From: Balneolaceae bacterium
GTDB taxonomy: Bacteria > Bacteroidota > Rhodothermia > Balneolales > Balneolaceae
Direction: 5' to 3'
Length of the DNA: 64,000 nucleotides
Assembly: GCA_017640605.1 (NCBI GenBank)
Contig: JAEPQH010000002.1
Span: forward strand, 1-64,000
The notes beneath the pieces were generated by a model that was not told the DNA's origin, made no database searches, and saw nothing but the letters and a program-made list of their open reading frames with translations. Shown here piece by piece: positions 7,986-12,589 of this stretch (within the stretch, counting starts at the first letter, position 1; each line of letters begins with the position of its first letter). Made by a program: the position numbers and the translations under genes.

Positions 7986-9239
7986 TTATTCTTCGGGGGT
8001 TAATACAGCTTCCATAAAGTGTGTTTGATCGAAGAAATTTTTGGCGAATTCCAGCACATCTTCTGCTTTTACTTCGTCAATATTTTCCTCAAGCTCATCT
8101 AAAGTGATAAATCGTTCGAAATACATCTCACTTTTTGCTAAGCGCATCATTCGATTGCTTGTATTTTCCTGGCTAAGCAATAGCTTTCCTTTTAATTGAG
8201 ATTTAGCCTCTTCAAATTCCTTCTCAGGGATTAAATCAGAACTTATTTTATTGAGTTCGTTCACTACTAACTCATGAACATGCTCGACGTATTCTTTATC
8301 AGTTCCTACATAAACACCCCAAATACCCGAATCAGAGTAACTTTGATTAAACGCCTGAATGGAATAACAGTATCCATATTTTTCTCGCACATTTTGATGA
8401 AGTCTGGAACTCATTCCTCCGCCTAAAACTGTATTCGCGAGCAACAATAAATATTTGTCGTCATGATCAAAATGCAGCCCACGTCGTCCCAATAAATAAT
8501 GAGTTTGCTCAATTACTTTGGTTAACTCCAATTTTTCCGGATTGAAATCAAGAAGAGGCTGAGGTTCATTTACTGTTTTCGTGGCTTCAAGCTGTGAAAA
8601 ATACTTCGTTACCTGATCTACAACTTCATCATGATTTACATTACCGGCAACAGCAATCAACAGGTTATCCGGTCGGTATCTGTCTCCCATATAATCAAAC
8701 AAATCCTGTCGAGTAAATTCATTCACAGTATCCTCAAAGCCAATTACTGGTCTACCAAGTGAATGATTCTCAAACATCTTCGTCGAGAATTCTTCGAAAA
8801 GATAATCATCGGGTGAGTCGCGGTACATTTTCATTTCTTCGACTACAACCTTCTTTTCTTTTTCGATTTCCTTTTCAGGAAAAGCAGGATTTAGCACCAT
8901 ATCTGAAAGAACATCTAAGGCTCTACCAAGTTGTTCGTCTACACATCTGGCATAGTAACAGGTATATTCGCTGGATGTAAAGGCATTCAGATAGCCTCCA
9001 ACCGATTCCATGCTTTGTGCAATATCAAAGGCTGTTCGCTTATCGGTTCCTTTAAAAAGCATGTGCTCTAAAAAGTGCGTAATACCAGCCTGTTTAGCCG
9101 TTTCATTTCTTGAACCGGTCTTTACCCAAATCCCAACTGAAATACTTTTTACGCTATCGATGCGCTCGGTTACAATACGTAAGCCGTTTGGTAATGTAGA
9201 TTTAGTGACGTAATCGATTTCCTTTAAATTTTCCATCAA
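7986..9239 (-). CDS. M16 family zinc metallopeptidase (processing-peptidase-like)
   Basis: A 417-residue M16B-type insulinase-fold protease. The inverted zinc motif HFLEH sits at residues 55-59, with the distal glutamate ligand expected near 134-135 in VVVEEMKMYR. The N-terminal catalytic half (~10-220) is followed by the inactive C-terminal half containing the usual RGLHFDHDDKYLLLLANTVLGGGMSSRL-type segment. Single-chain proteins of this length act as dimers. The substrate is unknown; relatives resemble the mitochondrial processing peptidase beta subunit and YmxG. No signal peptide is evident, so it is probably cytoplasmic. The upstream region is filled by an octamer repeat and other intergenic repeats. 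Confidence 0.9.
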   Translation of the reverse strand: MMENLKEIDYVTKSTLPNGLRIVTERIDSVKSISVGIWVKTGSRNETAKQAGITHFLEHMLFKGTDKRTAFDIAQSMESVGGYLNAFTSSEYTCYYARCVDEQLGRALDVLSDMVLNPAFPEKEIEKEKKVVVEEMKMYRDSPDDYLFEEFSTKMFENHSLGRPVIGFEDTVNEFTRQDLFDYMGDRYRPDNLLIAVAGNVNHDEVVDQVTKYFSQLEATKTVNEPQPLLDFNPEKLELTKVIEQTHYLLGRRGLHFDHDDKYLLLLANTVLGGGMSSRLHQNVREKYGYCYSIQAFNQSYSDSGIWGVYVGTDKEYVEHVHELVVNELNKISSDLIPEKEFEEAKSQLKGKLLLSQENTSNRMMRLAKSEMYFERFITLDELEENIDEVKAEDVLEFAKNFFDQTHFMEAVLTPEE

Positions 9240-9344
9240 ATGTGTTTACTGTGAGCGTCTCTATTTTGGGTGGGCAAATATACGAGGTTAGATGTCCAGA
9301 AACATCCGCTATGATATGAAATCTAGCAAGAATATTGAGAACGC

Positions 9345-9403
9345 CACTTAGGCACTGAGGCACTGAGGCACTGAGGCACTGAGGCACTGAGGCACTGAGG
9401 CAC
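9345..9403. repeat. CACTGAGG octamer tandem repeat
   Basis: One degenerate unit (CACTTAGG) is followed by six perfect CACTGAGG copies at 9353-9400 and a partial CAC. It lies ~105 bp upstream of the M16 peptidase start. Repeat number could vary by slippage. A 67-residue open frame across it on the minus strand is only the translation of the repeat. Confidence 0.9.
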
Positions 9404-9467
9404 AAAGAAAAATAAATTACTTAATATCTAGAGGAGTGACTGATCTAACCATGAATTCAATTAAAAA

Positions 9468-9563
9468 GTCATTCAGATCCGCCGGCTGGCGGAGATGAAT
9501 CCACACAAACTGGTAATAGCTCGAGTTATCTATTTTGCAGACTCCTCGATTCCTCGGAGTGAC
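9468..9563. repeat. Palindromic repeat unit 1
   Basis: The unit begins GTCATTCAGA and ends GGAGTGAC. Outer arms are imperfect inverted repeats. Inside the left arm is a perfect hairpin TCCGCCGGCTGGCGGA, followed by GATGAATCCACACAAA. The right arm carries TGCAGACTCCTCG and GGAGT. It belongs to an array on both sides of the GIY-YIG gene. Confidence 0.8.
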
Positions 9564-9593
9564 TAGAATCTACTCACACAATCAAAACACCGA

Positions 9594-9683
9594 GTCATTC
9601 AGAGGGTACTCCCGATGAATCTACACAAATTGAAACCAGCCCGCTTTATCAATTTTGTAGACTCCTCGATTTCACGGAGTGAC
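9594..9683. repeat. Palindromic repeat unit 2
   Basis: It starts GTCATTCAGAGGGTACTCCC, continues GATGAATCTACACAAATTG, and ends TGTAGACTCCTCG then GGAGTGAC. The left arm GATGAATCTACA pairs with the right arm TGTAGACTCCTC. It ends 7 bp before the stop codon of the GIY-YIG gene. Confidence 0.8.
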
Positions 9684-9690
9684 TGGGTTA

Positions 9691-10041
9691 TTACTTTTTT
9701 AGATATTTCTGAAAATATGGATCTTCTAAAACCTTATTCGGCGGCCATTCTCCTACTATTTCTTTATTCAAAAATCTCCACTTAGGATTGAATGAATTAA
9801 TTAATTCCTCTTTCCATTTTCGGGATTTTCCTTTAATCCTTTTTTCAGCTGCAATGGCTTCAATCATAGTTGGGAATACATCATAAAACACCAAATTATA
9901 GCAATAGTGTTTTCCGGCAAAACTATCTGATTTTCCACGTTCTAGATAATGCTCTACTACTCTTCGAGATAGATTATTGGATGTGCCAGTATAAAGTACA
10001 CTGCGGTTTGGATTGGTGGTTATGTATACAGCGAAATTCAT
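9691..10041 (-). CDS. Single-domain GIY-YIG nuclease-like protein
   Basis: A 116-residue stand-alone GIY-YIG (UvrC/Slx1-type) domain. The first strand VYITTN and the second motif LYTGTSNNL correspond to the GIY and YIG elements. R26/R27 follow on the next helix as the candidate catalytic arginine, and the EAIAAEKRIKGKSRKWKEELI helix supplies the candidate metal-binding glutamate (E61 or E66). The C-terminal FNPKWRFLN block is common in this small-protein family. No separate DNA-binding domain is present. The gene sits in the middle of a run of palindromic repeat units, two on each side. Its cellular substrate is unknown. Confidence 0.85.
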   Translation of the reverse strand: MNFAVYITTNPNRSVLYTGTSNNLSRRVVEHYLERGKSDSFAGKHYCYNLVFYDVFPTMIEAIAAEKRIKGKSRKWKEELINSFNPKWRFLNKEIVGEWPPNKVLEDPYFQKYLKK

Positions 10042-10075
10042 GTATTACAATAACAAAAGAAAAACTAAGTGCAAA

Positions 10076-10201
10076 GTCATTCTTAACTAAGTGAAGAATC
10101 TGCAAAATACCTTTTTGGGTAACACTTCATTTACAGCTTAAAACAGTATTATGCAGACTCCTCTGCCACAGGCATCCCTTTGGGAGATTCCTTGGATTGA
10201 C
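10076..10201. repeat. Palindromic repeat unit 3
   Basis: It begins GTCATTCTTAACTAAGTGAA, with GAAGAATCTGCA, and ends with TGCAGACTCCTCTG followed by GGATTGAC. Conserved ends match the other units, while the middle and the inner hairpins differ. The AATCTGCA and TGCAGACT arms are complementary. Confidence 0.7.
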
Positions 10202-10228
10202 TGATCTATGTATGATTTCTATAAAAAA

Positions 10229-10379
10229 GTCATTCAGAGGGTACTCCCGATGAATCTACACAAATTGAAACCAGCCCGATTTTTCAATTTTATAGACTCA
10301 TCGCCGCGCCCACCTCCACTAAAGTATACAATACGAAGCGAAAGCGCAGTATTGCTGCGGTTGGCTTGCTTTGAGTGAC
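10229..10379. repeat. Palindromic repeat unit 4 with longer right arm
   Basis: The first ~85 bases are nearly identical to unit 2 (GTCATTCAGAGGGTACTCCC, then GATGAATCTACACAAATTG). The right arm is expanded by about 60 bases between TAGACTCATCG and GAGTGAC. A 27-bp spacer separates it from unit 3, the same length as the spacer before unit 1 (9441-9467) and partly alike in sequence. Confidence 0.75.
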
Positions 10380-10385
10380 TTCCAT

Positions 10386-10420
10386 AAAAAAAGCATCCCC
10401 ACAAAATGAGGATGCTTTTA
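10386..10420 (-). terminator. Rho-independent terminator of pnp
   Basis: On the minus strand an 8-bp stem AAGCATCC/GGATGCTT (10391-10398 with 10410-10417) is followed by a U-run, encoded by the As at 10386-10390. It lies ~60 bp after the pnp stop codon. Confidence 0.85.
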
Positions 10421-10477: not shown

Positions 10478-12589
10478 TTAATCTTCTCGTTCAATCAACG
10501 CTTTGCGAGAAAGGCGAAGTTTTCCACCATGTTCAACTTTCAACAGTTTCACATCAAGCTCATCACCTAACTGCAGGTAATCTGTTACTTTTTCAACTCG
10601 TTTATGGTCGATTTCAGAGATGTGAAGTAGTCCATCTTTACCCGGTGCAATCTCAATAAATGCTCCGAAGTCTTTGATCGATTTAACGATACCTTTGTAA
10701 GTAGCACCTTCTTCCAGATGACCAACAATCATCTTGATTCGTTTTTTCGCTTCTTCCGCTTTGTCTAAGTCGTTCGCAGAAATGGTAACCTGTCCTTTAC
10801 CATTCGAATCTTCTTCGATTAGGATTTCGGTTCCGGTTTCTTTTTGAAGCGTTTGAATCACTTTACCACCAGGGCCGATTACCGCACCAATATCGCTTCC
10901 GTCAATTTCCATTTTAATGAATTGAGGAGCATACTGAGAGATATTCTCTCTAGCAGAAGAAATAGTTTTCGCCATTTCACCTAGAATGTGCATACGGCCA
11001 TCATGTGCTTGATCTAATGCTTTTTCGATGATTTCGAAACTTATGCCCTGCACCTTCATATCCATCTGGCACGCGGTAATTCCATCTGAAGTACCGGCAG
11101 TTTTGAAGTCCATGTCGCCCATGAAATCTTCTTCGCCACGGATATCAGAAAGTACTACCGTTTTTTCTTCACCTACAATCATACCCATTGCAATACCTGC
11201 GACCGGTTTTTTGATGGGTACACCGGCATCCATTAACGCCATAGATCCACCACAAACAGAAGCCATCGAAGATGAACCATTAGATTCGGTAATGTCTGAA
11301 ATCACACGAACTACATATCCGAATTCTTCGAAAGTTGGCATCATCATGCGAAGCGAGCGCTCAGCTAAATGTCCGTGACCGATTTCACGACGTCCCGGAC
11401 CGCGCATAAAGCCTGCTTCACCAACAGAATATGGAGGGAAATTATAGTGCAGGAAGAATGTCTTTGCTTCCTGATCGAATAAAGTGTCTACAGATTGCTC
11501 ATCACGTTTAGTACCTAGCGTTGCAGAAACAAGTGCTTGAGTTTCTCCACGGGTAAAAATAGAAGAACCGTGTGCACGAGCAATGTATCCAACTTGTGTC
11601 CAGATATCGCGAATGTCAACCGGGGTACGGCCGTCAATTCGTCGCTCTTGCTCAAGAATCATGTTACGAAGCGCATCTTTTTCGATGGTGCCAAGAATCT
11701 TTTTCACTTCTTTCATTACATCATCTTCTGCTTCGTCTTCCTCAAACTTAGCAACAACCGCTTCTTTTACTTCACGAATTTTGTCGTTGTACTCTTCTTT
11801 ACCAAGTCCAATATTTACAACATCTTTAATTTGTGACTCTGCAAGCTCTTTTACTTTGCTTTCTAAATCACTATCAACCTGCGCAGGAACAAACACGCGC
11901 TTTGGCTTGCCTAATTCTTGACGAAGTTCTTCCTGGAATTCGCACAATTTCTGGATTGCTTCATGAGCAGCTTTAATGGCTTCGAGCATTTCTTTTTCGG
12001 AAATCTCTTTCATCTCACCTTCGATCATCAAAATGGAATCGGCTGTACCACCAACTACCATATCGATATCGCTTTCTTTTAGTTCAGAAACTGTAGGATT
12101 GATTACAAAATCGCCATTAATACGTCCAACTCTTACTTCGGCCATAGGACCATCGAAAGGGATATCAGATAAATGAATAGCTAGTGAGGCACCAACGCCT
12201 CCTAATACATCACCATCGTTCTCATCGTCTGACGAGATAACACTCGAAATTACCTGAGTGTCGTTGTAGTATCCTTTTGGGAATAATGGACGAAGCACAC
12301 GGTCGATGAGTCGACTTGATAATACTTCTTTTTCGTTTGACCTTCCCTCTCTTTTCATAAATCCGCCCGGGAAACGTCCTGCAGCTGAAAAACTTTCTTT
12401 ATGATCTACCGTTAGCGGGAAAAAATCTTGTCCTGGTTTAGGCTCTTTTGCACTAACCGCTGTACAAAGCACCATGGTATCTCCCATGCGTACAACTACA
12501 GCTCCATCGGCTTGTTTTGCAATTCTTCCGGTTTCTACGGAAAGCACCTTACCTGGTGCAAATTCTACACTTTTAAAATCTTCTTTCAT
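10478..12589 (-). CDS. pnp: Polyribonucleotide nucleotidyltransferase (PNPase)
   Basis: A 703-residue 3'-to-5' phosphorolytic exoribonuclease of the RNA degradosome. Two RNase PH-like domains (~5-140 and ~310-530) flank the helical linker. The second carries the motifs GRREIGHGHLAERSL and SVCGGSMALMDAGVP. A KH domain (~555-615, with GSDIGAVIGPGGKVIQ) and an S1 domain (~620-690, starting GATYKGIVKSIKDFGAFIE) bind RNA. Length is normal. It follows rpsO in the conserved rpsO-pnp order, with rpsO's terminator between them; pnp ends in its own terminator. In other bacteria pnp is autoregulated through its leader, and the 129-bp gap could serve this. Confidence 0.97.
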   Translation of the reverse strand: MKEDFKSVEFAPGKVLSVETGRIAKQADGAVVVRMGDTMVLCTAVSAKEPKPGQDFFPLTVDHKESFSAAGRFPGGFMKREGRSNEKEVLSSRLIDRVLRPLFPKGYYNDTQVISSVISSDDENDGDVLGGVGASLAIHLSDIPFDGPMAEVRVGRINGDFVINPTVSELKESDIDMVVGGTADSILMIEGEMKEISEKEMLEAIKAAHEAIQKLCEFQEELRQELGKPKRVFVPAQVDSDLESKVKELAESQIKDVVNIGLGKEEYNDKIREVKEAVVAKFEEDEAEDDVMKEVKKILGTIEKDALRNMILEQERRIDGRTPVDIRDIWTQVGYIARAHGSSIFTRGETQALVSATLGTKRDEQSVDTLFDQEAKTFFLHYNFPPYSVGEAGFMRGPGRREIGHGHLAERSLRMMMPTFEEFGYVVRVISDITESNGSSSMASVCGGSMALMDAGVPIKKPVAGIAMGMIVGEEKTVVLSDIRGEEDFMGDMDFKTAGTSDGITACQMDMKVQGISFEIIEKALDQAHDGRMHILGEMAKTISSARENISQYAPQFIKMEIDGSDIGAVIGPGGKVIQTLQKETGTEILIEEDSNGKGQVTISANDLDKAEEAKKRIKMIVGHLEEGATYKGIVKSIKDFGAFIEIAPGKDGLLHISEIDHKRVEKVTDYLQLGDELDVKLLKVEHGGKLRLSRKALIERED

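Follow-up and report, generated by a model that had tools for sequence, protein, structure and literature searches.

A GIY-YIG nuclease gene among paired CGTC-type REP units: a putative mobile cassette in Balneolaceae

Results

Organization of the locus

The window analyzed here comprises the first 64,000 nt of a contig (JAEPQH010000002.1) from a Balneolaceae bacterium (GCA_017640605.1). Two genes on its minus strand, one for an M16 family peptidase (7986-9239) and the other for polynucleotide phosphorylase (pnp, 10478-12589), are syntenic neighbors, the former defining the empty site in relatives. The intergenic region that they enclose holds a lineage-specific block of palindromic units and a nuclease gene (9338-10385), delimited by alignment to the genome of a same-genus sister (G032) and by 20 relatives that do not carry it. 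On the plus strand, the block contains a unit fragment that retains only the outer end GAGTGAC (9434-9440), assigned from the sequence and from repeat family D4, and then unit 1 (9468-9563; halves 9468-9501 and 9540-9563) and unit 2 (9594-9683; halves 9594-9621 and 9660-9683), both recognized as paired REPs from sequence, repeats and folding. Just 7 nt separate the end of unit 2 from the stop codon of the minus-strand gene (9691-10041) encoding a stand-alone GIY-YIG nuclease. On its other side lies unit 3 (10076-10201; halves 10076-10100 and 10156-10201), another plus-strand paired REP by sequence and folding, with a 22-nt double-hairpin insert, TGCCACAGGCATCCCTTTGGGA (10164-10185), breaking up its second half; the motif of this insert recurs elsewhere in this genome and in related ones. 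Unit 4 (10229-10379; halves 10229-10256 and 10295-10379), also a plus-strand paired REP, has an insert in its second hairpin and matches unit 2 at 95% identity across 76 nt. An earlier note, made from the sequence alone, had described four units with two on either side of a central stand-alone GIY-YIG gene and spacers of 27-30 bp; all four are present at 9468-9563, 9594-9683, 10076-10201 and 10229-10379, neighboring units lie 30 and 27 nt apart, and the gene sits between them as claimed. An 8-bp tandem repeat, GGCACTGA, present in about seven copies (9345-9403), lies at the block’s left edge. A terminator-like hairpin belonging to pnp itself (10389-10419) is conserved in the sister genome that has no units.

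Build and recurrence of the units

Each unit is an inverted pair, in which the first half reads GTCATTC-hairpin-GAATC and the second GACTC-hairpin-GAGTGAC, with GATTGAC in unit 3. The outer ends and inner pairing reported earlier can be seen in every unit. The arms joining the halves can also pair, as TCTACACAAATTG and CAATTTTGTAGA do in unit 2. Two details of the earlier description needed correction: the second hairpins of units 3 and 4 hold inserts of 22 nt and about 60 nt, respectively, and unit 1 has CCACACAA at the place of unit 2’s CTACACAA. The stems are imperfect, the tags are AGTC and the tails are CTA or CTG. Folded as single-stranded DNA, three of the window units scored only moderately better than dinucleotide shuffles (z of -1.8, -2.8 and -2.4), and folding alone would therefore not carry the case. 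The strong evidence that the units are real is their recurrence. The pattern GTCATTCN{10,40}GAATC has 59 matches in the genome compared to 7 for the reversed pattern, and many of the genome copies are perfect dRS3-like palindromes (GTCATTCCCGCGAAGGCGGGAATC), many of them in inverted pairs. A DNA scan with unit 2 alone recovered few copies because the units diverge quickly, making a pattern search necessary. This reversed-pattern control, together with the matched-site controls described below, rules out chance or a simple-repeat artifact.

The insert in unit 3 has a distribution of its own. Besides its place at 10164-10185, the 22-nt double hairpin TGCCnnnGGCATCCCnnnGGGA is found in a unit half of another genome (G091, locus L088); a further copy, in the host genome (G000:C13:78449-78470), is inserted at TTC^GAA within a duplicated tRNA T-arm. 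The exact pattern has 42 matches in 13 of 58 family genomes, while its reversal has none. It resembles a very small mobile element built from a double hairpin.

The nuclease and its paralogues

The nuclease gene is intact and complete, and its 116-amino acid product has a single domain (PF01541, E = 1.5e-13). Residues Y6, Y17, G19, R27, E66 and N85 of the GIY-YIG motif are invariant in an alignment of 22 homologous sequences. The protein matches TIGR01453 with 20.5 bits, under the cut-off of 56.05, and the gene is intergenic between the M16 gene and pnp; a group I intron endonuclease was rejected on these grounds. The host genome (3.74 Mb in 34 contigs) contains 12 GIY-YIG matches, mostly small stand-alone genes, and near relatives with names include Balneola, Gracilimonas and other Balneolaceae.

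One paralogue, 46% identical to the window protein, lies at G000:C10:147335 (loci L004 and L062) within different paired repeats of its own, CATCTCGACC...GAGATCTA / TAGATTTCTC...GTTCGAAAGGAC, which escaped our strict unit rule. A second group of GIY-YIG genes in the same genome adjoins tRNA genes (Asn, Met, Ser and Pro, as judged by eye) and partial tRNA copies, at G000:C13:78163, C25:380, C3:192, C11:97947 and C14:28533 and 28867. Genes of this group sometimes occur as tandem duplicates of gene plus tRNA fragment, and two contigs end there. The group is the tRNA-linked counterpart of the REP-linked clade.

Association of nuclease genes with units

With the protein as query, we screened 92 family genomes and then read the flanks of its homologues. 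Because full-length alignment of units is poor where arm lengths differ, pairs were counted by the rule GTC-ATab...b'a'AT-CT, which covers every unit type: GTC is followed by AT and two variable bases, then by a loop of 8-45 nt, the reverse complement of that four-base stretch, and finally CT. Under this strict rule, 55 of 68 family homologues have units no more than 500 nt away, 39 having them on both sides, and 13 have none. Close homologues occupy varied chromosomal places, yet they are flanked by units, and the orientation of the units relative to the gene is constant in the six closest. By comparison, a unit lay within 500 nt of 1 of 20 control sites chosen 25 kb away on the same contigs, none of 20 RAYT-type Y1 transposase genes, and 1 of 20 other GIY-YIG genes taken from the top of the Pfam list, which are partly tRNA-linked. 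The corresponding Fisher tests, with P = 6e-10 for the control sites and P = 2e-11 for the Y1 genes, ignore relatedness and so give overstated P values.

The same pattern was found in a second set of 80 loci from named genomes in six phyla (Bacteroidota, Chlorobiota, Planctomycetota, Chloroflexota, Pseudomonadota and Campylobacterota), a few of which are Balneolaceae that had already been counted. A unit is present at 60 of these 80 loci. Half-units reach a density of 3.08 per kb within 500 nt of the gene, compared to 0.07 per kb beyond 800 nt, and there are 278 unit matches, compared to 8 in the reversed sequence. Copies on cyanobacterial and rhizobial plasmids are in agreement with the association. 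A plasmid collection yielded 23 matching records, including large replicons and a chromosome-sized gonococcal record (2.17 Mb); there were no matches in 50,697 phage records.

Two of the plasmid sites have unusual surroundings. On plasmid AZO_p3 of Azospirillum lipoferum 4B (L373), a GIY-YIG gene with CGTC units separates sufB from sufC, apparently within the suf operon. On plasmid p1 of Planktothrix agardhii (L376), a GIY-YIG gene and its units are bordered by an MmeI-type restriction gene and the DISARM gene drmA.

Unit numbers across whole genomes point the same way. The earlier note had staked its idea on genome-wide co-occurrence, and among 66 near-complete family genomes at least five units of the window pattern are found in 15 of 19 with a close homologue but in only 8 of the 47 that have none (P = 4e-6). 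It had also named genomes rich in units but devoid of such a nuclease as evidence to the contrary, and these exist in part: G067, G001 and G023 have 81, 18 and 9 units, respectively, with no cognate nuclease beside them, so the link between nuclease and unit is not obligate. The 81 matches in G067 are of the CTGAACTTG subtype, and no GIY-YIG gene lies beside such units. Y1 transposases also show a relationship with unit number: at least five window-pattern units occur in 23 of 45 genomes with a Y1 transposase and in none of 21 without. In partial correlations, unit number follows GIY-YIG genes (0.56) more closely than Y1 genes (0.31). The host genome has five Y1 matches, one of which (C14:153617) lies about 180 nt from a unit, and the palindromes that flank Y1 genes are of other kinds.

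Co-divergence of units and proteins

Between genomes, unit distance correlates with protein distance (Mantel rho = 0.289), with none of 2000 permutations as high, and the same was true when units were swapped only among the paralogues of one genome (0 of 2000). The unit types GTCATTCAGAG, GTCATTTCGACC, GTCATCCCGG, GTCATTGCGAG and dRS3-like each tend toward their own nuclease group, and copies around one gene tend to be alike. A tree of 105 proteins, for which the unit rule was slightly looser than that behind the 55 of 68, has two sides, one with units at 72 of 81 members and the other without them at 21 of 24; the split is supported at 100/96, subject to the caution that it falls where long branches join. 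Of the 20 genes in the sample contributing most of the second side, 5 have a tRNA gene no more than 700 nt away, compared to none of the unit-linked genes tested.

The empty site

Of 23 relatives searched, 20, two of the same genus among them, have the M16 gene next to pnp; in the other three, pnp fell outside the retrieved stretch. None of the 20 syntenic relatives has a nuclease gene or an array between the two. The alignment to the sister genome G032 extends up to position 9337 and resumes at approximately 10386, and the G032 orthologue of the nuclease (85% identity) sits elsewhere. Orthologues at such other sites lie between copies of the unit. In G003, the same intergenic region contains one unit of the window type. 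From these comparisons, the block appears to be mobile. Nuclease genes lie between direct copies more than between inverted ones (median direct score of 118 compared to 26), and a unit tag follows the stop codon within 30 nt in 50% of one set, compared to 5% in the sample of other GIY-YIG genes.

Elsewhere in G003 (C1:953766-953921, locus L123), a GIY-YIG remnant interrupted by a stop lies between two inverted units. It is a decayed cassette.

Discussion

Relation to known repeats and nucleases

A 2013 survey by Di Nocera et al. divided bacterial REPs into the GTAG superfamily, which is tied to RAYTs, and the CGTC superfamily, whose members “apparently lack a dedicated transposase” (PMC3733652). 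CGTC REPs have an unpaired (C/T)GTC tag, a stem of 8-9 bp that starts with AT and a loop of 4-5 nt, occur mostly as head-to-head dimers and comprise four published families, with dRS3 as the neisserial member (PMC3733652). The last has the consensus ATTCCC(N8)GGGAAT (PMC3898611). The window units share the GTC core, the AT-starting stem, the short tail and the lack of a link to RAYT genes, and all four, like most units of relatives, are inverted head-to-head pairs. The GTC core appears in every window unit as AGTC, while CCGTC and TGTC forms lie beside homologous nucleases in Alphaproteobacteria and Neisseria. Copies of the dRS3 type, such as GTCATTCCCGCGAAGGCGGGAATC, are also present in this genome and fit the published stem and loop sizes. 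In the window itself, however, the units have AGTC tags, mismatched and longer stems and arms instead of 8-9 bp, and tails of CTA or CTG, and the mismatched stems and longer arms place them outside the four published families, although still of CGTC type. Judged by core features only, the window units fit the CGTC superfamily. Whereas the survey found no dedicated transposase for these repeats, the window units have an enzyme gene beside them.

The gonococcal record provides the closest parallel. It contains a GIY-YIG open reading frame, 33% identical to the window protein (E = 5e-8) and a member of the unit-associated clade, inside a dRS3 array with ten units on one side and six on the other within 900 nt, and the array has the core GTC-ATTC...GAAT-C in common with the window units. 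We take this reading frame to be Ssn, reportedly described in Nature Communications in 2025 as a sequence-specific single-strand nuclease that acts on NTS repeats in Neisseria, has thousands of homologues, and modulates natural transformation through its interactions with NTS. The earlier note knew of no described system of this sort; one does exist, as neisserial dRS3 arrays contain a homologous GIY-YIG gene. Both systems pair a small stand-alone GIY-YIG protein with a high-copy palindromic repeat that lies beside the gene and throughout the genome, but the units in the window belong to another subtype, form head-to-head dimers and occur a few to a locus, not in long arrays. By homology and context, the locus groups with the Ssn-type nuclease and repeat. 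Our literature search for GIY-YIG together with REP, REPIN, dRS3 or Ssn returned no direct treatment within a coverage that excluded the 2025 paper.

Two other systems invite comparison. As with REPINs and RAYTs, pairs of palindromes are dispersed as non-autonomous copies and flank an enzyme gene; here, however, the enzyme is GIY-YIG and not HUH/Y1, the tag is GTC and not GTAG, and the Y1 genes of these genomes lie elsewhere with separate palindromes. The REP/RAYT analogy drawn by the earlier note is well supported by the local association (55 of 68 compared to 1 of 20), the co-divergence and the mobility of the block. GIY-YIG domains are known from homing endonucleases, such as the I-TevI type of group I introns, which resemble the window system in their catalytic domain, their gain at new sites and the presence of candidate target flanks, but the window protein is single-domain and does not lie in an intron.

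Interpretation

We consider it likely, from comparative sequence evidence, that the block is a mobile nuclease/REP cassette and that the GIY-YIG protein is the cognate partner of the CGTC-type REP dimers. The main competitor is that the nuclease is a selfish gene of the homing type, which inserts at REPs that already exist while the units are moved or copied by other means. Most units do lie away from GIY-YIG genes, there are orphan unit families, and GIY-YIG domains are known from homing endonucleases; we give the idea a real but minority share. Against it, unit type tracks nuclease type even among the paralogues of one genome, and the units around one gene tend to match; a pure hitchhiker would need a match only at its target site. 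Slightly less probable again is a host function, in which nuclease and repeats police incoming single-stranded DNA and the repeats are kept as self-marks and not as selfish spreaders. The gonococcal protein in its dRS3 array, of the same clade and with the same unit core, speaks for such a role, as does the reported effect of NTS/Ssn interactions on transformation; yet the gain of the gene at various chromosomal sites among close relatives, and the presence in single genomes of many paralogues that differ in unit type, resemble mobile DNA and not a conserved host system. Close homologues are also missing from 47 of the 66 near-complete family genomes.

Two further explanations have little probability. 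One is that the units are ordinary REP doublets moved by Y1/HUH transposases, with the GIY-YIG gene incidental. Against this, none of the 20 sampled Y1 genes has a unit within 500 nt, different palindromes flank these genes, and the partial correlation of unit number is higher for GIY-YIG (0.56) than for Y1 (0.31). The 2013 survey likewise found no RAYT link for CGTC REPs (PMC3733652). We rejected RAYTs as the mobilizer on proximity and keep them as a minor, quite improbable rival because every unit-rich genome has Y1 genes; the five Y1 matches of the host genome and the unit about 180 nt from C14:153617 also count in their favor. Least probable of all, to the point of being nearly negligible, is that the units are terminators or stabilizers of the pnp or M16 transcripts, with the gene there by chance. 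They can fold and lie downstream of pnp, and REPs are often transcribed (PMC3733652), but the counts of 55 of 68 and 60 of 80 exclude chance, and pnp has its own terminator-like hairpin (10389-10419), conserved in the unit-less sister genome.

As for how a nuclease/REP cassette might spread, the enzyme would most likely bind a single REP half in folded, single-stranded form, exposed on the lagging strand or among strands taken up in transformation, and nick or cut it near the GTC tag; both the cutting and the strand preference are our inference. GIY-YIG enzymes are hydrolytic, and such a nuclease cannot transpose by itself, so the units would multiply only with the help of host repair or recombination, in contrast to the transposition put forward for RAYTs. 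We favor a homing-like route, in which a cut unit elsewhere would be repaired from a unit-gene-unit copy through unit homology, leaving the gene between two direct units. Solo units would then be dispersed, non-autonomous copies left behind.

The pairing recurs in relatives from many bacterial phyla, and our results suggest that this GIY-YIG family is the partner of CGTC repeats long thought to have none. The CGTC-REP link and the mobility of the cassette seem to be the new parts, as far as a literature coverage excluding the 2025 Ssn paper can tell, and part of this may already be in print. The mover of the CGTC class was left open in 2013 (PMC3733652), and the evidence now points to one enzyme family in at least six phyla. 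More speculatively, with odds we put somewhat below even, GIY-YIG nucleases may be general mobilizers of CGTC-type REPs throughout Bacteria, each clade cutting its own repeat, spreading as a homing cassette and seeding solo dimers. This would make them a second REP system, in which a hydrolytic nuclease replaces the HUH transposase. If they spread in a homing-like manner, such a REP system would need no transposase. Concrete nuclease/repeat pairs are now named for testing, and because each nuclease clade has its own repeat type, these pairs also amount to a ready-made inventory of candidate nucleases with sequence specificity.
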